Part shown: positions 42,610-57,563 of the stretch, in pieces
Layout of the letters: each line of letters begins with the position of its first letter
Numbering within the stretch: the stretch's first letter is position 1
Notes under the pieces: model-generated
Databases searched by the model: none
The model's input: the letters and a program-made list of their open reading frames with translations, nothing else
What the model was told of the DNA's origin: nothing
Source: Sulfuricurvum sp.
GTDB lineage: Bacteria > Campylobacterota > Campylobacteria > Campylobacterales > Sulfurimonadaceae
Direction: 5' to 3'
DNA length: 64,000 nt
NCBI GenBank assembly: GCA_030692765.1
Contig: JAUYUB010000010.1
Coordinates: 108,010-172,009 of the forward strand
Program-made: the position numbers and the translations under genes

Positions 42610-43071
42610 TTAGCGTGCAGGTATGTACGCATAGCCTTCGTTTTGCTTTTCAATTAATCCAATCGTAGATGTAGGGACAAGCGTCACAAAATCATAAACG
42701 TTTTCTTTGACAATTTTATTCCTTTTCATTCCTGATTCACACATAAAATACGAAACTTTGTAGGTATTGACAGAACCTGTCAATCGTTTCAAAAATGTTT
42801 CTTGCAACTTCGAAAGCGTTGTGTCCTTTTTATACGGTGTATTTGTTAAGTTTTTCACAAAAAATCTATAAGCTTCGCCATGTATGACCACGGCTACTTC
42901 CAACTCTTCCATCTTATTTTCAAAATGGGTTTTTTGTACTGGAATACCGCTTAAGATTATTTTTTCAAATGTTTTTGAATCACCCGTAGTTAAATCAAAA
43001 ACAACTTTATGGACGATTTCTTCTGCATGTAACGATACAGCCAAGATTAAAATAAAGAACCATTTTTTCAT
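42610..43071 (-). CDS. secreted DsrE-like protein
   Basis: Signal peptide; HKVVFDLTTGDSKTFEKII...ELEVAVVIHGEAYRFFVK...VSYFMCESGMKRNKI. Confidence 0.7.
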   Translation of the reverse strand: MKKWFFILILAVSLHAEEIVHKVVFDLTTGDSKTFEKIILSGIPVQKTHFENKMEELEVAVVIHGEAYRFFVKNLTNTPYKKDTTLSKLQETFLKRLTGSVNTYKVSYFMCESGMKRNKIVKENVYDFVTLVPTSTIGLIEKQNEGYAYIPAR

Positions 43072-43081
43072 ACTCTTCTCC

Positions 43082-43522
43082 TTAAGGTCTAATATACGTT
43101 GAGCCGGACCTAATACGTTCGATCAACTCAACAACTCCTGCCGTAACGATCTCACTTCCCTCAATGAGCTGCGAGGGCTCTATTTTTTTCGTCTGCATCG
43201 TATTACCGCATGCCACAAATCTAACATCGTATTGCATAAGTGCTTTCACACGTACAGAAATCTCTTTTTCGCTTTTTAAAAGTGCTCTAATACCCTTAGA
43301 ATAGGCAACAATTTCCATTTCTACATTCTCTGGACCGTAAAATCTGAGCACATTATTAGCCGTACTCAGAACATGATTGATCGCTTCATCATCACCCGCA
43401 ACTATCGAAAAAATAATCTGACGCGGATTATCGATAGAGGGAATTGGCTGCGCGAACTGCGTCTCGCCATAGGAGGTGAAACACATAAACGCAAGCATTA
43501 AAAAAAATTTGATCATTCCCAC
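43082..43522 (-). CDS. secreted DsrE family protein
   Basis: Signal peptide; RQIIFSIVAGDDEAINHVLSTANNVLRFYG...VRFVACGNTMQTKKI with the DsrE-type Cys. Confidence 0.8.
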   Translation of the reverse strand: MGMIKFFLMLAFMCFTSYGETQFAQPIPSIDNPRQIIFSIVAGDDEAINHVLSTANNVLRFYGPENVEMEIVAYSKGIRALLKSEKEISVRVKALMQYDVRFVACGNTMQTKKIEPSQLIEGSEIVTAGVVELIERIRSGSTYIRP

Positions 43523-44415
43523 TCCAACATACGATATGCAGCATCCACATTACCCCGATGCAATGTATCGTACATTTTCTGGGATTGATAGGCTGGCATC
43601 TTTACCTTTTTAATCGTCTCGTCCAGACCGATGCCCGATCCAATAGCCTCACGGACTTCTGTACGCATCTGCATGAGATACTCATACGTCATCTTTGCGG
43701 CATCTTTATCGGTACGGAATCCATGCCCGCCTACAATCGCCGTTGCATTCAATGTGTCTAAATACTCCAAGGCATCAATCCAGCCATTAATATCTCCGTC
43801 TCTCAGCGAAAGAACGCGATCATTAAAAACTAAATCTCCTGCAAAAAGGGTTTTAATATTGGGCAGATATACCACCATATCTTTGTCACTGTGTGCTTTT
43901 TTCTTCATCAAATGCAGTTCAATAATCTGATTACCGATGATAAGCGTCTTATCCTCACTGATAATTTCAGTAGGACGTGTCGGCACGGTAAATTCGTATG
44001 CTTCTGGAGAGACATGGGTTTGGATTCGGGAAGGAGAATCAATGATAGAGTTATAAACAAAATCAACCGAACCCAAAACCATAACTCCCTTTTGAACAAA
44101 ATAACCGTTACCCAGCCAATGATCGTCGTGAACATGGGTATTTATTACTAACTCAACAGGTTGTGGTTTAATTTTTTGCATCGCTTTGTACGCCGCATCG
44201 GCGTACAAATACGAAGAGCCGCTGTCAATCACGACATAGCTCTTTTTGGTATCGACATAACAGGTGTTGACCATGTTGCCATTGTTGCTCTTATTCATAG
44301 CCTCTGGTTCCCCGAAAAAACAGGTGACCTCAGGGGTAATACGCTGAGGCTTGAGATCAAACTCAAACCCGTTCAACGCGCTTAAAGAAATAAGTAATGG
44401 CAACATCCAACGCAT
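43513..44415 (-). CDS. secreted MBL-fold metallohydrolase (SoxH-like)
   Basis: VINTHVHDDHWLGNGYF (HxHxDH), FAGDLVFNDRVLSLRDGDINGWIDAL, VGGHGF. Confidence 0.88.
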   Translation of the reverse strand: MRWMLPLLISLSALNGFEFDLKPQRITPEVTCFFGEPEAMNKSNNGNMVNTCYVDTKKSYVVIDSGSSYLYADAAYKAMQKIKPQPVELVINTHVHDDHWLGNGYFVQKGVMVLGSVDFVYNSIIDSPSRIQTHVSPEAYEFTVPTRPTEIISEDKTLIIGNQIIELHLMKKKAHSDKDMVVYLPNIKTLFAGDLVFNDRVLSLRDGDINGWIDALEYLDTLNATAIVGGHGFRTDKDAAKMTYEYLMQMRTEVREAIGSGIGLDETIKKVKMPAYQSQKMYDTLHRGNVDAAYRMLEWE

Positions 44416-44425
44416 GGTTTATCCT

Positions 44426-45928
44426 TTAGAAGAGGTAGTTCATTTCGAAACGATATTCGTTGTATGAAACATGGTCTGCATGAATAGTATTTTGCGTATT
44501 TTCTGCATCAATAATTCCTACACGAAGTTTAAATTCTGTGTTAGGAAGCTCTTTGAATGTTTTAGTAACATCAAGTGTATACACATCTCGATCAGACCAT
44601 GTTGTACCGCCTAAAAGAGCTTTCGTATCGTCCATATTAATATTTTCGTATCCAATTACGGTATCCAATCCTTCAATAATACCGGCTTTTCCAAAGTCAT
44701 ACCCTGCTCTTGCCATATAACTTTCTGTGTTTGCAATCCAATCAAGCTGTGCCATCAAACGGGTATATCCCCATGTTGGAAAGTTGCGCCATTGAGAAAC
44801 AATGTCCGCATCATCCGAAACTTTTGACCAGCCAATCGCTGCATTAAATGGACCATTATCGGCAACCAAACGTGCCATCAAAATACTTCCATCAAGATTG
44901 TCTCCATCTGTATAACCTTTAGAAGCTGCGTTAGCAGCCGTTACAGTACCACCTATCGCTGCTCCTCCGATTGCTCCTGCACCATCATCAATCTGCTTAT
45001 AATAGCGCACCCCCGGAGTAACGCTCCAAGCACCCAATCCAATTTTATAGTTCGCTTCCAAAACTACATCTTTGAGATAATCTTGGATTTGATAATATCC
45101 GGCATTTAATTTAAGATCTTTTATAGATGTATTCTCTGCCATAACGTAAGCCATAGCAGGTGTCAAATCTTTTCCTGCAGCAGTAACAGTTGACACTTTG
45201 ATACCTTTATGACGTCCATAGTCATCGTTATAGCTTAATCCTTGTGTATCATTATTACCTGCAACCATTAAACTATGAAATGTATCATGGTCACGCAATT
45301 TTTGACTTGTTAAGTAGCCCAATTCAATTTTTGTTTGTGGTAAATCTTTGTTTTTAACTACAATACCTTCAAACGTCTGTGGAATCATTTTCGTATCGTT
45401 GGTAGATACAATCTGATTTTCAACTTTTTGACGTCCAGCAATTACTTCTGTATTTCCGATTTTATATTCTAAAGTAAGTTCAGCTAAAACATCATTGTTC
45501 TTTTGAGATCCATCCTCTGCGGTTACGAATGTATCTTTACCCGCTTTTACCCCTGTCTTTGGCACAGCTGATGTTAATATTTCTTCATTAGTAAGCGGAA
45601 AGGTTGCATAAAAGCCAACTGTAGAAGAAAAACCTTTGTAATTTGCTGTTTTATACACCAAGCTTCCGCCAAGCCCCCATGCCGTATTATCTACAGCCTG
45701 ATCAGACTGCTCATTTTCCCAATCCCAATAAAACATGTTAGAACGAAGACGTCCGTATACTTCTCCTTTAGTAAACATTTCATTAAATGATTCTACACTG
45801 CCTGGTACTTTTGTGTATTCAACCTGATAATTCCCTTTGAGAACACGATCTTCAGTTTTAAGCGCATGCGCCGACGTAGCGAACAAACACGCAGCTGCTG
45901 CTGCGATACTAAGATTTACTAATTTCAT
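44426..45928 (-). CDS. outer membrane porin, Campylobacterota major OMP/OprD-like
   Basis: Signal peptide (AAAAACLFATSAHA), beta-barrel-like composition, terminal aromatic residue (YRFEMNYLF). Confidence 0.82.
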   Translation of the reverse strand: MKLVNLSIAAAAACLFATSAHALKTEDRVLKGNYQVEYTKVPGSVESFNEMFTKGEVYGRLRSNMFYWDWENEQSDQAVDNTAWGLGGSLVYKTANYKGFSSTVGFYATFPLTNEEILTSAVPKTGVKAGKDTFVTAEDGSQKNNDVLAELTLEYKIGNTEVIAGRQKVENQIVSTNDTKMIPQTFEGIVVKNKDLPQTKIELGYLTSQKLRDHDTFHSLMVAGNNDTQGLSYNDDYGRHKGIKVSTVTAAGKDLTPAMAYVMAENTSIKDLKLNAGYYQIQDYLKDVVLEANYKIGLGAWSVTPGVRYYKQIDDGAGAIGGAAIGGTVTAANAASKGYTDGDNLDGSILMARLVADNGPFNAAIGWSKVSDDADIVSQWRNFPTWGYTRLMAQLDWIANTESYMARAGYDFGKAGIIEGLDTVIGYENINMDDTKALLGGTTWSDRDVYTLDVTKTFKELPNTEFKLRVGIIDAENTQNTIHADHVSYNEYRFEMNYLF

Positions 45929-45959: not shown

Positions 45960-47726
45960 TTAGCAGCTTTTTGAGCCCTTACCAGGACAACCGCAATCGT
46001 AATCAAGAATGTTAACATTGCTGTTACCACTAATATCGACCTTTTTTTGCTTTCTTATATAACTAGAAGTTATATCGTAGACAGGGCGGGTCAATTTGTC
46101 ATTTAAGTTCGTCCCTGCGTTTTGCAGGTTTCCGCCCCATGACGACACTTTGTAGACTTTACGGTCATCCAAAGGTTTACCTTTTACCATGATGTTGGTG
46201 ATCCGTTTTCCACTTGGAGCACCAATCTTGATATCATATGTCACACCGCCAAGACGACTCATATCGCCCCCTTGTTGGTATAACGGATTCGCATTGAAAA
46301 CATTGTCCGCGATATCTTCCAGAACATTTCGTATCTGCAATCCGCCCATCTCAAACGTATAAACATTTGGATAAGTGATCGCCGTCATACCGTAGACATC
46401 GTCCATTGTGATCTGTTCACCGCCAAGAACCGTCGTTCCCCAGCGATATCCAGGCGTAAACGATATGTCTGAATCCATCGCATCCATGATAGAGTCATTG
46501 ATCAACTCATCAAACGGCGAATGAAATGTATCGCGTTTGTACAAGATGTTTTTTGTCACACCCAGTATCTCACCAAACTCTTTTTCATGCGGAGCATAGA
46601 GAGAGTTGACCAAATCAACCCCCTCCGGATCTGCAGGGATAAGATTGGCAGCAATCGGGATAAGCTTATACTCGTATCCTTTGACTTTATGGTTTTGGAT
46701 ATCGATATCCAGACGTCCAACGTATTTACCGTGACTTCCTGCGATAATGATAACCGTACCGTTAATCACCGTAGGACGTGGTGATGGATCATGCGTATGG
46801 CCGCTGAGGATGAAATCGATCCCCTTAACCTGACGTGCTACCTCCTGGTCAACACTGAAACCATCATGTGATAGTAAAACTACACAGTCAACCTTTTCTT
46901 CTTTACGCAATTTATCAACATACTTTTGCAACGTATCCAAACGCAATCCAAAACTCCACCCTTGGGTAAACTCTTTTGGATTTGCGGTTGAGGTAAACGG
47001 AAACGATTGTCCGATAATACCGATTTTGGCACCGCCACGTTCTTCGATCGTATACGGTTTAAAAATCAGTTCTTCGTAATCATCGGCAAATGAATCATCC
47101 CCGACAATATTTTGAGAAATAAATTTTCCATTGAGCATTTCAATGAGTTCTTTTACCCGTTGTTTCCCATAGGTAAACTCCCAGTGGCCTACCATCACGT
47201 CTACGCCCAAATAGTTTTGTGCTTTGACGATCGCTTCACCCTGAGTTTTTAGTGCAACACCTGTCCCCTGCCATGTATCACCGGAATCCAACAACATAAC
47301 ATTATCTGCGCCGCGCTCTTTTTTGATATGGTTGATGAGGGTTTTCATATGTGCGATCCCCCCCATTTTCCCAAACTTCTGCGCCAACGTGTCAAAGTTC
47401 ATAAACGTGTCGAAATAGGCATCAAGGGTCTTGCCCTTCATTCCATAGTGCTTTAAAAACGACTCACCGCACAAAAACCCTGGAGTTCCTGTGAGATTTG
47501 GGGCCGAGATCAGCGTTGAAGGCTCACGCCAGTAAAGAGGTTTGATGTGCGCATGCATGTCACAAATATGCAACAGCGTTACTTTGCCTTTTGCATTAAA
47601 GCCGTAAATATCTTTTAATCCTACTTGATCGAGACGCGTAGGTGTTGATGCTGCAGCCCCAAGGGTCGGCAATCCGATCCCTAGTGCCACGGCAATGTGA
47701 AAAAAGTCTCTTCGTGATACATCCAT
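45960..47726 (-). CDS. soxB: thiosulfohydrolase SoxB
   Basis: TAT signal (SRRDFF), HICDMHAHIKPLYWREPS, LLDSGDTWQGTGV, LSGHTHDPSPRP. Confidence 0.96.
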   Translation of the reverse strand: MDVSRRDFFHIAVALGIGLPTLGAAASTPTRLDQVGLKDIYGFNAKGKVTLLHICDMHAHIKPLYWREPSTLISAPNLTGTPGFLCGESFLKHYGMKGKTLDAYFDTFMNFDTLAQKFGKMGGIAHMKTLINHIKKERGADNVMLLDSGDTWQGTGVALKTQGEAIVKAQNYLGVDVMVGHWEFTYGKQRVKELIEMLNGKFISQNIVGDDSFADDYEELIFKPYTIEERGGAKIGIIGQSFPFTSTANPKEFTQGWSFGLRLDTLQKYVDKLRKEEKVDCVVLLSHDGFSVDQEVARQVKGIDFILSGHTHDPSPRPTVINGTVIIIAGSHGKYVGRLDIDIQNHKVKGYEYKLIPIAANLIPADPEGVDLVNSLYAPHEKEFGEILGVTKNILYKRDTFHSPFDELINDSIMDAMDSDISFTPGYRWGTTVLGGEQITMDDVYGMTAITYPNVYTFEMGGLQIRNVLEDIADNVFNANPLYQQGGDMSRLGGVTYDIKIGAPSGKRITNIMVKGKPLDDRKVYKVSSWGGNLQNAGTNLNDKLTRPVYDITSSYIRKQKKVDISGNSNVNILDYDCGCPGKGSKSC

Positions 47727-47736
47727 CGTGTGTCCC

Positions 47737-48510
47737 TTAACGCTTCAGACCAGGGATCTGGATCGTGTTGCCTTTACCTTTATTGGTAACGTATACTTCA
47801 AGGGCAACCATCTCTTTTGAACCCAATGGCAACTCAGCCAAAAGCGCATTTTTCATACACTGCTGCATACGCTTGTCAAATGACACCATCGCGCTTTGTG
47901 TCATACGGTAAGCATGCCATGTTGATGCAGATGCAGTTGTTGGTGCACCTAAATCCGGAAGTTCCTGCATACGTAAACGTGATCCGATGATATCAGGGCT
48001 GTGGCAACTGTTACATGAAAGACCGCGTCCGCCGCGACGTTCTTCAAAAATGTGCTTACCAAGCACCACCATCTCTTCCATCTGCTTATTTACTTTGACA
48101 TCAATGTTTGTCTTAAGATCATTAGCCAGTGATTTTACATACCCTGACATCTTAACCATCTCTTTGCTTTCAAGTTTTGGAACAGCTTTTCCTTGCTGTG
48201 CCGCTGCCATTTGGAGTGATTGAGACAATGTCACAACTTTACCTGCTGCCTTTACCAAACGAGGAAAACCTGCTATTGTTTTTGGTAGATCCTTTACACT
48301 AACCCCAAGCATCTTGGCATAGGCTTCTTGACCGATTTGAGCGTTAAACAACTCTTCACCCTCTGCTATATCCATTGCAGCAGGGTTGTTTTCCAACATT
48401 TCGGCATACATTGCTTTATCCGCAGCATTCATACTCATTGATTCTTCGGCATTTAAGATACCGCATAAAGCAAGTGAGAACAAAGCCGTGCAAATAGAAA
48501 GTTTATGCAT
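47737..48510 (-). CDS. soxA: sulfur oxidation c-type cytochrome SoxA
   Basis: Signal peptide; one CNSCH heme site and a downstream candidate ligand Cys (MQQCMKN); position between soxZ and soxB. Confidence 0.93.
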   Translation of the reverse strand: MHKLSICTALFSLALCGILNAEESMSMNAADKAMYAEMLENNPAAMDIAEGEELFNAQIGQEAYAKMLGVSVKDLPKTIAGFPRLVKAAGKVVTLSQSLQMAAAQQGKAVPKLESKEMVKMSGYVKSLANDLKTNIDVKVNKQMEEMVVLGKHIFEERRGGRGLSCNSCHSPDIIGSRLRMQELPDLGAPTTASASTWHAYRMTQSAMVSFDKRMQQCMKNALLAELPLGSKEMVALEVYVTNKGKGNTIQIPGLKR

Positions 48511-48513
48511 TAT

Positions 48514-48840
48514 TTATCCTTTTGGAGTAATGGCTACGCTACTCTCTACGTTATCGCCTTTATTGTCTTTTGCAAGGACCTTTAGTGTTCCTGTAGCTGA
48601 CACTTTCATACTGATGGACAATACAGGATTAACAGAAAGGGATTCCCACGTGACCATTTTTGTCAACATCTTATCGTTGAAGAAAAAATTCACTTCATTG
48701 ATGAAATGAGCCGGTACGATTTGTCCCGTATCTTTATCTTTACGCATTCCCGATTCCATAGGATGCATTGCCATGAAATCGATTTTTACGATCTCTCCGA
48801 CTTTATAGTCTTTTGGTTTAACTTTGATCAGTGTCTTCAT
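48514..48840 (-). CDS. soxZ: thiosulfate oxidation carrier complex protein SoxZ
   Basis: 108 aa, KEDYKVGEIVKIDFMAMHPMESGMRKDKDTGQIVPAHFINEV-type SoxZ sequence (KPKDYKVGEIVK...). Confidence 0.96.
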   Translation of the reverse strand: MKTLIKVKPKDYKVGEIVKIDFMAMHPMESGMRKDKDTGQIVPAHFINEVNFFFNDKMLTKMVTWESLSVNPVLSISMKVSATGTLKVLAKDNKGDNVESSVAITPKG

Positions 48841-48884: not shown

Positions 48885-49358
48885 TCAACCGCATCCGCCG
48901 ATGGTTACTTTTACATTTTGCTTTGCACTTAAGAAAGTACCGTTACTCATCTCGGCAACTGCCAATACATCTTGCGTTGATCCAAGTTTGATACGCGTTG
49001 CAAAAGTTGCTTCTCCATTAGCAGGTGTCAAATAGACATTTGCGCATCGAGAATTATTGTTTTTGGTTGCCAATACATGGATTGCTTTAACATAGTCATT
49101 CGCACTCATTGGGCTTTCCACACTTACTTTAACCGGTACAACGGCTCCGTTTTCTGCAATCTCAGGCGCAGAAAGAGATACTTTTGAAGATGGTGTTACC
49201 GCCTTGCCGCCTGTAATAGCGTTCAGCGCTGATTCAACGCTCATCTCATTAGGGCCTTTAACTTTTTTAGCCTCATCTGCCGCACTTGCAATAGTAGGAA
49301 CCAATGCAACACATGCACTTACTGCTCCAAATCCTTTTAAAAATGATCTACGTTCCAT
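48885..49358 (-). CDS. soxY: thiosulfate oxidation carrier protein SoxY
   Basis: TAT signal (ERRSFLK), C-terminal swinging-arm GGCG. Confidence 0.96.
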   Translation of the reverse strand: MERRSFLKGFGAVSACVALVPTIASAADEAKKVKGPNEMSVESALNAITGGKAVTPSSKVSLSAPEIAENGAVVPVKVSVESPMSANDYVKAIHVLATKNNNSRCANVYLTPANGEATFATRIKLGSTQDVLAVAEMSNGTFLSAKQNVKVTIGGCG

Positions 49359-49381: not shown

Positions 49382-49900
49382 TTATTTTTTAGAAACAATA
49401 TACGACATCAGATCGCATACTTCACGCTCAGAAAAGAGCCCATTTGCCAAATTAACCGTCATATGTGTGTTTGGGTTGTCTAAACGCGGATCAGCGATTT
49501 GCTGATACAAAAACTGCCCAGTTCTAGCGCCACTGTCCATATAAAGAGCTTTGTAGTTTGTCAAATCTGGTCCGATATTACCGTGCCCTTGTGAGCCTTC
49601 GATTTGATGACAAGCGACACAGTTACCCATTTGCTTCTCTTTTCCATTTGGAAGCAATCGTGTTAATCCCTCTGGAGGATTTTCTTTTGCATCTTTTCCG
49701 TTTAGGTTATGGAAAATGTAATTCCCGCGCGCAATCGCTGCACTGTCATCGACAATACACCCTGCCGGCATTGTGTACAGTTTTGGTGCAGGAAGTGCAT
49801 CTTTTAGCAAAATTTCCGTTGCATCAGGAATTTCAATTGCTGTTGAAAGATCGGCTGCACCTAAAAAGGTGGCGATCCCAAGCATTATCATTTTTCGCAT
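49382..49900 (-). CDS. soxX: sulfur oxidation c-type cytochrome SoxX
   Basis: Signal peptide; GNCVACHQIEGSQGHGNIGPDLTNY; C-terminal REVCDLMSYIVSKK. Confidence 0.94.
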   Translation of the reverse strand: MRKMIMLGIATFLGAADLSTAIEIPDATEILLKDALPAPKLYTMPAGCIVDDSAAIARGNYIFHNLNGKDAKENPPEGLTRLLPNGKEKQMGNCVACHQIEGSQGHGNIGPDLTNYKALYMDSGARTGQFLYQQIADPRLDNPNTHMTVNLANGLFSEREVCDLMSYIVSKK

Positions 49901-49933
49901 TCGCTCTCCTTGATTTATTGATCGAGAAGATTG

Positions 49934-49959
49934 TACAGAAGCTTTGTAAATTTTCTGTA
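49934..49959. repeat. inverted repeat TACAGAA-N12-TTCTGTA upstream of soxX
   Basis: Perfect 7-bp arms on + strand; minus strand also reads as TTTACA direct repeats 11 bp apart. Confidence 0.6.
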
Positions 49960-49965
49960 AAATAA

Positions 49966-51138
49966 TTAAATATTATCTACTTTAAATGATGGAGGGTGAA
50001 AACAATAGGTAAAAGTGCTTCCTTTTTTCTCTTCAGACTCTATACGCAAATCAATATTAGCATGATCAATAATCGACTTGACGATATTAAGTCCGATGCC
50101 AAAGCCGCCTTTTTCTTTGTTTTCCCGATAGTACCGTTCAAAGATTTGTTTGCTGTCTTTTATCCCGACTCCATTGTCTTTGAAAATCATTAGACATTCA
50201 TCATTATTTGTTGCAAGCGTAATGTCGATATTGCCTTCTTCATACGAATATTTAATCGCATTGGAAATATTGTTGTCAACAATGCGCTGCAATTGTGTAG
50301 GATTAAAGAAAAGCATGATCCCATCCGTGATTTGAGAATTGATCGTAATGTTTCTAAGTACAGCGACTTCCTCGAAATAATCAATACGTTCTCGTAAATA
50401 TTGACTCAGATTGATCATTTCATATTCAAAAACAACCCGTTCATTTTTAATCAGGTAATCCATATCATTGTAGATGGTTGCCAATGTTTTGGTTGCAGCT
50501 TTGATTCTTTGAAGATATTTATTCGTCGAATTATTCCGATTGTAAAGATCAATGTTAACATTTATTATAGAAAGAGGCGTGTTGATCTCATGCATCGAAT
50601 CTTTTATAAACCGATCGAGGCGTTGATTTACCCGCTGGAAGCGCAATGCAAACCGGTTGAGAAAAAAGAGGGATAAAATGAAAATCAAGATGGAGATAAC
50701 CAATAAAACAATCACAACATCCTGATAGATACTCACATAGGATATTTCCCCTCCGACAATAAGATATGCAGCATCAAAATATCGTCGTTCCGGTAAAGAA
50801 ACAACGATATAAGCATAATTGTCTTGAACATGATATCCTGTTTTATGTACCATTAAAGGTACCTTAATTAAGGTAAAAAGAGGAGAAAAGTGTTCGTCAT
50901 ACAATCCCGACTGAAGAGATTGAAAGCGGGGATAGTCAAATGGCTGGTTTTGTGTTTGATCAAAATCTTCCATTGCTCTAATGATCAGGTGCGACTGCCC
51001 TTTGAGCGTAAACTGATACTCAATTTCTTTTACATGCTTCATATAGGTAACATACACATACGTCGGTACCAGTAAAAGAACGGCAACGAGCATCGTATAG
51101 AGAAAAGCATTCTTTAATGCATAGCCGTTATCGTTCAA
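49966..51138 (-). CDS. sensor histidine kinase adjacent to sox cluster
   Basis: Two TMs flanking periplasmic region, H-box DSMHEINTPLSIINV, NAIKYS N-box, DNGVGI, GGFGIGLNIVK. Confidence 0.92.
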   Translation of the reverse strand: MNDNGYALKNAFLYTMLVAVLLLVPTYVYVTYMKHVKEIEYQFTLKGQSHLIIRAMEDFDQTQNQPFDYPRFQSLQSGLYDEHFSPLFTLIKVPLMVHKTGYHVQDNYAYIVVSLPERRYFDAAYLIVGGEISYVSIYQDVVIVLLVISILIFILSLFFLNRFALRFQRVNQRLDRFIKDSMHEINTPLSIINVNIDLYNRNNSTNKYLQRIKAATKTLATIYNDMDYLIKNERVVFEYEMINLSQYLRERIDYFEEVAVLRNITINSQITDGIMLFFNPTQLQRIVDNNISNAIKYSYEEGNIDITLATNNDECLMIFKDNGVGIKDSKQIFERYYRENKEKGGFGIGLNIVKSIIDHANIDLRIESEEKKGSTFTYCFHPPSFKVDNI

Positions 51139-51781
51139 TAATGTACCCCAGTCCCCGCCGGTTTTGAATAATTTCTATCGGAAGTTTTTTACGAAGGTTA
51201 TTGATTTGTACACGAATATTTGCCGGATCAACGTACTCACCCCAAATTTCATCCTGAAACATTGCGACCGATACGATCTGATTTTGATGCTTTAGCAAGA
51301 CAGAGAGTATCTCTTTTTCTGTTTTGCTAAGCGTTATGCTTTCATTATTGAAACTAAGAATAAACTTTTCAGTATCATAGATAAGCCCCTGCCCAAAATC
51401 AAGCAAATGTTCACCGTGATGATAATAATCTTTTAACGCATGCATAATCCGAAGTTGCAGTTCCGTCAGATCAAAAGGTTTACGAATATAGTCACAGCAC
51501 CCTGACTTATATCCCTCTTGCAGATTATCAACATTGACCATAGAGGTTAGAAAAATAGCCGGTACTTTATTCCCCTCTTTTCGCAACGTCCGTAATAGAT
51601 CAAAACCATTCATCCCAGGAACATTGACGTCCAGCAAATAAAGATCAAACGATGTTTCATAAATCGCATCAAATGCCTGATCACCATTTGAAAAACCTAT
51701 GACTTCAAATCCGATATCTTCCAAAAATTCAGTAATACTGACCCGTAGCATGTATTCATCTTCCAAAAGCAATACCTTCAT
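51128..51781 (-). CDS. OmpR-family response regulator
   Basis: LLLEDE, YLLDVNVPGMNGFDLL, YIRKPFD; C-terminal winged helix (NIRVQINNLRKKLP...RGLGYII). Confidence 0.94.
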   Translation of the reverse strand: MKVLLLEDEYMLRVSITEFLEDIGFEVIGFSNGDQAFDAIYETSFDLYLLDVNVPGMNGFDLLRTLRKEGNKVPAIFLTSMVNVDNLQEGYKSGCCDYIRKPFDLTELQLRIMHALKDYYHHGEHLLDFGQGLIYDTEKFILSFNNESITLSKTEKEILSVLLKHQNQIVSVAMFQDEIWGEYVDPANIRVQINNLRKKLPIEIIQNRRGLGYIIER

Positions 51782-52914
51782 CGAATCTCTCCTTCTATTT
51801 TTTTTGATACTTTATAATTGAGCATGATACCGATCAATTCTTCTTTAGAATATGCATTTAATCTTTCACGTGCTTCCTCTAAATAAAACTCTCGGTCTTC
51901 AGGAGCTGCAACATCTTTCATGTAAAGCAGTTCTTTATCCTGTATTGTCTGAAAAACAGTATTTTTCAATGATTCTTTGGCCATCGTATCATAAAGCTGG
52001 TCACGGCTTAAGGGAATCAAAAAAGAGATGTCTTCTTGCTGTGAATGCTCATAATTGCTCATTTGTTTTTGGGTCAATGAAAAAACAAACGCGCCGATGA
52101 TCTCTCCTCCTCCGTTTTTCATCGGCTGATAAAAGAAATATTTTCCTTTATGTAACAACACATGAGCATCTTTGAGCGCTTGGTAATTAATTCCATTTAA
52201 GAGCTTGATGTCATTTTGTGTGTATTTTGAATTTGCCAAAATGTATTTTTTACCAATCATAGGATTTTCCTGCATAAATACAGCTACTTCATAAAATTGC
52301 TTGTCCATTAATATGTACAGATCAATTCCCAAATGGTCAAAATATTCTTTCGTCGGCTCAAAAAACGAAAGGACCTCTACAAAGCCAAGCATTTTGTCTT
52401 GATTATAAATCGGAACTGTCGCTTTAATTCCCAGCTTGCGCCCTACTTCAATCGCAGAACGGGGATTTTTATGCGTTTGGAAATAAAGCAGATCAGGACG
52501 GTGAAAATCCAATGGCATCCCGGCATACGAATTATCCCAACTGCGTGCAAAAATAACATAATCAGAGGTAATGATTTGTGAGCGTATCAACGCGTTTGTA
52601 TGGGTTTGAATGGATTTCATCCCCTCAGAGAGGATGTCAAATCCTTTATCCTCATCCTCTTGCTCCAACGCATTACTCAGTGCATCATTTTGTGATAGCA
52701 TCAATGCATATCGTAATGCTGTCTCACGTTCTTCTTGGAGTTGATTATTTAAAGAAATGGTTAGCTGATCACTCAAACGCGCGAGAGTCTGTGAGGTCAC
52801 TTCTTTTTTTAAAGACCAAAAAACAATGCTTAGAATGACGAGAATCAATAAAAAGACGGCCACAATTGTTTTTTTATTGCCAAAAAAATCTATTATACGA
52901 TGCATCATAGTCAA
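51778..52914 (-). CDS. Cache-like extracytoplasmic sensor protein without recognised output domain
   Basis: Single N-terminal TM, periplasmic region with YFQTHKNPRSAIEVGRKLGIKATVPIYNQDKMLGFVEVLSFFEP and GEIIGAFVFSL Cache-type segments; no kinase/MCP/GGDEF motif. Confidence 0.75.
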   Translation of the reverse strand: MTMMHRIIDFFGNKKTIVAVFLLILVILSIVFWSLKKEVTSQTLARLSDQLTISLNNQLQEERETALRYALMLSQNDALSNALEQEDEDKGFDILSEGMKSIQTHTNALIRSQIITSDYVIFARSWDNSYAGMPLDFHRPDLLYFQTHKNPRSAIEVGRKLGIKATVPIYNQDKMLGFVEVLSFFEPTKEYFDHLGIDLYILMDKQFYEVAVFMQENPMIGKKYILANSKYTQNDIKLLNGINYQALKDAHVLLHKGKYFFYQPMKNGGGEIIGAFVFSLTQKQMSNYEHSQQEDISFLIPLSRDQLYDTMAKESLKNTVFQTIQDKELLYMKDVAAPEDREFYLEEARERLNAYSKEELIGIMLNYKVSKKIEGEIR

Positions 52915-56888: not shown

Positions 56889-57563
56889 ATGCGCATTCTA
56901 ATCATTGAAGACGAAGTAACACTTAACAAAACTCTTTCAGAAGGCCTCAAAGAGTTTGGCTACCAAAGCGATGTCGTTGAGACACTAAAAGACGGCGAGT
57001 ACTATCTCGACATCCGAAACTATGACCTGATTTTGATGGACTGGATGCTTCCTGATGGCAACAGTGTTGACATCATTCCTGATATCAAATCTAATACTCC
57101 GAAAACCGTTGTTGTTGTTCTCTCAGCTCGTGATGACAATCAAAGTGAAATTGATGCCCTACGTGCAGGTGCAGATGACTATATCCGTAAGCCGTTTGAC
57201 TTTGATGTACTCATCGCTCGTATCGAGGCGCGTTTGCGTTTTGGCGGAAGCAACATCATCGAGATCGATGATCTTATCATCAATCCGGAAGAAGAAAAAA
57301 TTATCTACAAAGAAAAAGAGATCGAACTCAAAGGAAAACCTTTTGAAGTTCTCACTCACCTTGCTCGCCACCGTGATCAAATCGTCTCTAAAGAGCAATT
57401 GCTCGACGCAATTTGGGAAGAGCCTGAGCTAGTAACGCCAAACGTTATCGAAGTTGCTATCAACCAGATTCGTCAAAAAATGGACAAGCCATTAGGTATT
57501 ACAACGATTGAAACGGTTCGCCGTCGCGGATACCGTTTTTGTTTCCCTAAAGAAGTTAACTAG
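56889..57563 (+). CDS. OmpR-family response regulator, HsrA/CosR-like
   Basis: Receiver LIIEDE...LILMDWMLPDG...YIRKPFD; C-terminal IYKEKEIELKGKPFEVLTHLARHRDQIVSKEQLLDAIWEEPELVTPNVIEVAINQIRQKMDKPLGITTIETVRRRGYRFC closely matches remembered Helicobacter HP1043 sequence. Confidence 0.92.
   Translation: MRILIIEDEVTLNKTLSEGLKEFGYQSDVVETLKDGEYYLDIRNYDLILMDWMLPDGNSVDIIPDIKSNTPKTVVVVLSARDDNQSEIDALRAGADDYIRKPFDFDVLIARIEARLRFGGSNIIEIDDLIINPEEEKIIYKEKEIELKGKPFEVLTHLARHRDQIVSKEQLLDAIWEEPELVTPNVIEVAINQIRQKMDKPLGITTIETVRRRGYRFCFPKEVN

Follow-up and report, generated by a model that had tools for sequence, protein, structure and literature searches.

In PhoB-type class II activation, direct repeats spaced by 11 bp lie about 10 bp before the -10 hexamer, in place of the -35 element. 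Several described two-component systems resemble the locus analyzed here in its presumed signal, its genetic location, its operator or its accessory protein. ThsS-ThsR of Shewanella halifaxensis shares with it the two-component architecture and the link to sulfur, its response to thiosulfate having been demonstrated, but it consists of two genes only, controls thiosulfate reduction and not oxidation, and uses an 18-bp element as the operator (PMC5408782). In Acidithiobacillus caldus the TspS-TspR system is encoded at the sox-I cluster and is sigma54-dependent, while the OmpR-like RsrS-RsrR is encoded at the tetH cluster, its mutants change sox expression and the site bound by RsrR is an inverted repeat; a Cache partner has not been reported for either pair (PMC5093147). 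The PCE-sensing TCS2 of Sulfurospirillum provides an example of an OmpR-family regulator of a respiratory operon within Campylobacterota; its operator, with binding shown by EMSA, is built of CTATA repeats in 11-bp steps overlapping the -35 and resembles the sox repeat described below, although the repeat sequence is different, the target is organohalide respiration and the operon contains no Cache gene (PMC7755780). A periplasm-exposed accessory protein encoded beside a kinase and a regulator is known from the QseG-QseE-QseF system of Enterobacteriaceae, in which QseG activates its kinase through the QseG C-terminal region; unlike the proteins studied here, QseG is an outer-membrane lipoprotein and not a dCache protein, and QseF is not OmpR-type, acts on sigma54 promoters and has unrelated targets (PMC6075780, PMC12691602).

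In the open-licence PMC literature we have found neither a published sox regulator in Campylobacterota nor a description of the cassette reported here. Sulfurimonas, Sulfurovum and Sulfuricurvum, all members of Campylobacterota, are the dominant sulfur oxidizers of many vents, seeps and aquifers. The present analysis supplies for the sox genes of this phylum a named regulator, an exact predicted operator (49945-49961), a short candidate regulon and a candidate sensor. The locus, whose nearest named relatives are from Sulfuricurvum, lies in a 64-kb window (the whole stretch of DNA analyzed). The gene order on the minus strand is nadA-nadC-flhB, the Cache protein gene (51778..52908), the gene of an OmpR/PhoB-type response regulator (51128..51781), the histidine kinase gene (49966..51138), soxX (49382..49900), soxY (48885..49358), soxZ (48514..48840), soxA (47737..48510), soxB (45960..47726), a gene for an OprD-family porin (44426..45928), a gene for a SoxH-like hydrolase of the metallo-beta-lactamase fold (43513..44415) and two DsrE-family genes (42610-43071 and 43082-43522). 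SoxX, SoxY, SoxZ, SoxA and SoxB all score above the NCBIfam equivalog cut-offs (TIGR04485, TIGR04488, TIGR04490, TIGR04484 and TIGR04486, respectively); the porin, a conserved member of the sox cluster, was assigned by Pfam and the hydrolase by Pfam and NCBIfam, both together with neighbourhood comparison. The flhB-nadC-nadA genes directly adjoin the cassette on the same strand; the cassette as a part of an flhB-nadCA operon was rejected as a general arrangement, because this neighbourhood is confined to the genus. The overlaps reported in an earlier note on this DNA, 4 bp between the Cache and regulator genes and 11 bp between the regulator and kinase genes, agree to the base with the ORF calls, as does its 65-bp gap between the kinase gene and soxX (49901-49965). 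We consider it quite probable that the three genes form a dedicated regulatory system of soxXYZAB, in which the signal would pass from the Cache protein through the kinase and the OmpR-type regulator to the operator.

The Cache ORF itself is present as the earlier note claimed, but its listed start, TTG at 52914 (378 aa, overlapping the flhB stop codon), is less likely than ATG at 52908 (376 aa), because the alignments with the closest homologues start at query residues 2-4. The product belongs to the dCache_3 family (PF14827, 40.8 bits versus a cut-off of 25.7); the dCache domain occupies residues 45-283 and is followed by a conserved stretch of about 95 residues that matches no Pfam family. 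The only hydrophobic segment lies around residues 15-33, and no further one follows (19-residue maximum 0.9), in accordance with the claimed lack of an output domain. A single N-terminal helix would anchor the protein in the inner membrane, with the dCache domain and the conserved C-terminal tail exposed to the periplasm. Among 49 homologues the tail is conserved and ends with KEELI...G.I, and L358, G373 and I375 belong to the few invariant residues. The AlphaFold2 model (pLDDT 84.5) has an N-terminal helix and a confidently predicted dCache fold, which a flexible linker (292-316) connects to C-terminal helices. Its best matches among the solved structures (PDB) are the sensor domains of DctB (E 1.4e-8), the sensor domain of Tlp3 being also among the closest folds; by sequence no relatives were found in PDB at E up to 1. 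As a separate extracytoplasmic protein with a sensor domain and no output domain, encoded beside a kinase/regulator pair, the Cache protein would be an accessory sensor of the 'three-component' kind. The earlier note regarded such an output-less sensor as the unusual part of the locus; it is not unique, since the same three genes are found at multiheme-cytochrome operons.

The kinase has two TM segments flanking a conserved periplasmic domain of about 100 aa, and the Pfam domains HisKA and HATPase_c; the regulator is composed of Response_reg and Trans_reg_C only. H183 of the kinase and D51 of the regulator (the phospho-acceptor column) are invariant in the homologue alignments, and all the elements of a two-component system are present: the phospho-accepting histidine, HATPase_c, the receiver aspartate and the winged-helix output. 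The sigma54-interacting AAA+ domain of the TspS-TspR type is lacking from the regulator, and the cassette belongs to neither QseG-QseE-QseF nor PCE TCS2. The 'putative membrane protein' SMUL_1540 encoded beside the PCE TCS2 was considered as a Cache homologue and rejected, being a 111-aa DUF4405 protein (PMC7755780). A further OmpR-type regulator gene of the window (56889-57563), 29% identical to the cassette regulator, is unrelated to the cassette.

The periplasmic domain of the kinase, predicted to be a small beta domain, is conserved in its SGLYD, GYH and LP..RYF motifs, and this conservation speaks for an arrangement in which the kinase may sense for itself and the kinase-regulator pair alone controls sox through that domain, the Cache protein being perhaps dispensable, a modulator or engaged in another job. 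We regard it as rather unlikely, given that the Cache, regulator and kinase genes are co-located wherever the contigs allow, in the sox and cytochrome clades alike, that the dCache domain and the kinase periplasmic domain have correlated rates, and that the C-terminal tail is among the most conserved parts of the Cache protein. The correlation of the Cache and kinase rates equals 0.51 once soxB/soxA are removed, whereas that of Cache and soxX is 0.13, which mildly supports signalling of the Cache protein through the kinase. The earlier note had the Cache protein working through the kinase; the co-location of the three genes and the correlated rates are indirect support, from which we infer the signalling itself. 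In the favoured three-gene system the Cache protein would dock on the small periplasmic domain of the kinase, and the kinase would phosphorylate the OmpR-type regulator.

The association of the cassette with sox was surveyed in 299 genomes of the order, in which 57 loci encode SoxB at least 59% identical to that of the query locus. The kinase gene lies within 5.2 kb in 47 of the 57 loci of this soxB type, representing eight families (in one of the 47, from G023, on the opposite strand), and the order Cache-regulator-kinase-soxXYZAB is kept across families. In eight of the ten other loci the kinase is encoded on another contig, mostly at contig ends; one genome (G153) has the Cache, regulator and truncated kinase genes on a different contig from the soxB locus, and a single genome, G290, has soxB of this type and is clearly without the cassette. 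No kinase of at least 39% identity was detected in the 40 genomes with divergent SoxB (39-44% SoxB identity). The co-occurrence with soxXYZAB that the earlier note proposed to look for has thus been found, and the cassettes orthologous to this one stand overwhelmingly at sox and not mostly elsewhere, the latter being the distribution named beforehand as contradicting the proposal. The arrangement with the cassette preceding sox is widespread in vent and groundwater Campylobacterota. A second sox arrangement of Sulfuricurvum (L145, L146) comprises a 96%-identical SoxB, an additional divergent SoxB-like gene and, in the opposite orientation, another regulator-kinase pair, with no soxX match.

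The gap between the kinase gene and soxX contains, on the minus strand, the 11-bp direct repeat TTTACA-GAAAA-TTTACA (49945..49961), predicted as the operator on the basis of sequence conservation, then exactly 9 bp past the second repeat the -10-like hexamer TACAAT (49930..49935), and the soxX ribosome-binding site AAGGAG (49906..49911). This is a PhoB/OmpR-type layout, TTTACA-N5-TTTACA followed by TAnnnT; the -10 pattern is found in nearly all soxX promoters and the 9-bp spacing is fixed. Among 47 regions upstream of soxX the repeat is exact in 41, has one mismatch in five and three mismatches in one. It stays at soxX in the loci with 1-3 kb between the kinase gene and soxX (L034, L044, L045, L050, L058, L068, L075 and L094); an assignment to the kinase 3' end was rejected, because the repeat accompanies soxX beyond these inserts. 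The sole outlier is the soxXYZAB locus of G290 without the cassette (L138, contig C4), with the decayed repeat TTTAGG-N5-TTTATA and the consensus TATAAT as the -10; it is a natural loss experiment, a single case and not proof. Another set, which overlaps the first in part, comprises 78 named loci; nearly all of its cassette loci have the repeat with at most one mismatch, and one Sulfurovum locus with the cassette (L186) shows two mismatches. Five Aquificota sox loci (SoxB 58-59%) have neither the cassette nor the repeat, and 15 divergent Campylobacterota sox loci without the cassette have no repeat at sox. Only two exact copies of the repeat exist in the 2.15-Mb genome that contains the locus, and 17 in 11 genomes of the genus; because it is so rare genome-wide, the approximately 40 exact matches within a few hundred bases before soxX cannot be accidental. 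An exact repeat at G000:C12:81188, without a spaced -10, was treated as a chance match.

A direct repeat with a spacing of about 11 bp, just upstream of the -10 and tracking the regulator gene, places the site in the OmpR/PhoB class; it is like the PhoB-type class II sites in layout and unlike them in the repeat sequence and signal. The order-wide linkage and the conserved promoter repeat that tracks the cassette strongly support the control of the sox operon by the cassette, as suggested in the earlier note. The regulator would bind TTTACA-N5-TTTACA in the 65-bp gap, upstream of the weak -10, and, when bound, would recruit RNA polymerase in replacement of the -35 contact; the site position is the sole indication that sox would be activated rather than repressed. 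No exact operator was seen upstream of the Cache gene in the sox-linked loci, so autoregulation is not supported.

Sister Cache-regulator-kinase sets (L060, L062-L064, L066, L069-L071, L102-L105 and L134) adjoin genes for doubled-CXXCH multiheme cytochromes, an NHL propeller and a PPIase, and look like regulators of an electron-transfer conduit. Their Cache proteins are 22-28% and their kinases 43-47% identical to those of the sox type, and in the kinase tree they group as a single block. They have the same TTTACA repeat (21 sites versus none in the control), and the recognition region of the regulator, VDPANIRVQINNLRKKL, is common to the sox and cytochrome clades in nearly identical form. A more distant Cache-regulator-kinase clade with a different recognition region is without the repeat (1 site in 219 kb). 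Since the repeat follows the recognition region across the clades, it belongs with the regulator and not with sox promoters in general. A reading in which the cassette is a mere neighbour, with the repeat serving the core promoter or a different regulator, is very improbable: similar sites at some non-sox genes, e.g. ThiD2, would fit such a role, but cassette-free sox loci do not carry the repeat or, in G290, carry a decayed form, it recurs at a different operon type beside the sister cassette, whose regulator has almost the same recognition region, and its 11-bp direct-repeat form is that of OmpR-family sites.

The operator shared with the sister cassettes at the cytochrome, NHL propeller and PPIase genes would also suit a system sensing the general redox or respiratory state and not a sulfur compound. 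We find this doubtful, as small molecules are the usual ligands of dCache domains, the sensor domains of DctB and Tlp3 are among the closest folds, and the low identity of the Cache proteins of the two clades implies that their ligands may differ. The Cache protein of the sox cassette would instead sense an external small molecule, for which thiosulfate or some other sulfur compound is the likeliest candidate, as the earlier note proposed for a sulfur compound in general. In Sulfurovum indicum thiosulfate gives higher soxABXY1Z1 transcript levels than S0 does (PMC10045233), which is consistent with a sulfur-source signal. Our findings suggest that one sensing cassette has been reused for different respiratory pathways.

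The regulon was defined by the extended pattern and by conservation only, because the short repeat with one mismatch has 0.73 chance matches expected in the 64-kb window. The extended pattern with at most one mismatch gave 98 matches versus 28 for the reversed control in 31 genomes of the family (summed from the per-genome table). Three extended sites are present in the own genome. Besides soxX, they precede a gene for a PF04143 (YeeE/YedE-type) sulfur transporter (L266, G000:C7:181644-182729, 1.7e-54), with the operator immediately upstream and an identical site in G307, and a gene for a chemoreceptor with dCache_3, HAMP, MCP and CZB domains, also found with the operator upstream in two other genomes (L267, L268 and L269 in G000:C16, G170:C18 and G137:C65, respectively). 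The chemoreceptor site is present, with at most two mismatches, in seven of the 11 readable members of the genus (G137 included) and missing in four, indicating that the extended regulon is patchy. This protein is possibly a receptor for sulfur-compound taxis co-regulated with sox. DsrE and DUF302 genes carry the operator in other genomes. Judging from the sites, the regulator very probably has a small sulfur regulon, which in this genome would extend to the sulfur transporter and the dCache chemoreceptor. A more tentative possibility is that a lone dCache protein, a kinase and an OmpR-type regulator make up a portable module with one operator, coupled to thiosulfate oxidation by Sox or, in the sister clade, to multiheme-cytochrome transfer, with the Cache protein as a free-standing thiosulfate receptor and the chemoreceptor under the same operator steering swimming. 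The cassette is also a possible source of parts for sulfur-compound biosensors. In two genomes of the family to which the present genome belongs, ThiD2-like genes are closely preceded by near-identical operator-like sites (TTTACAGCACTTTTACAACTTTTTGGTAT; L277, L283).
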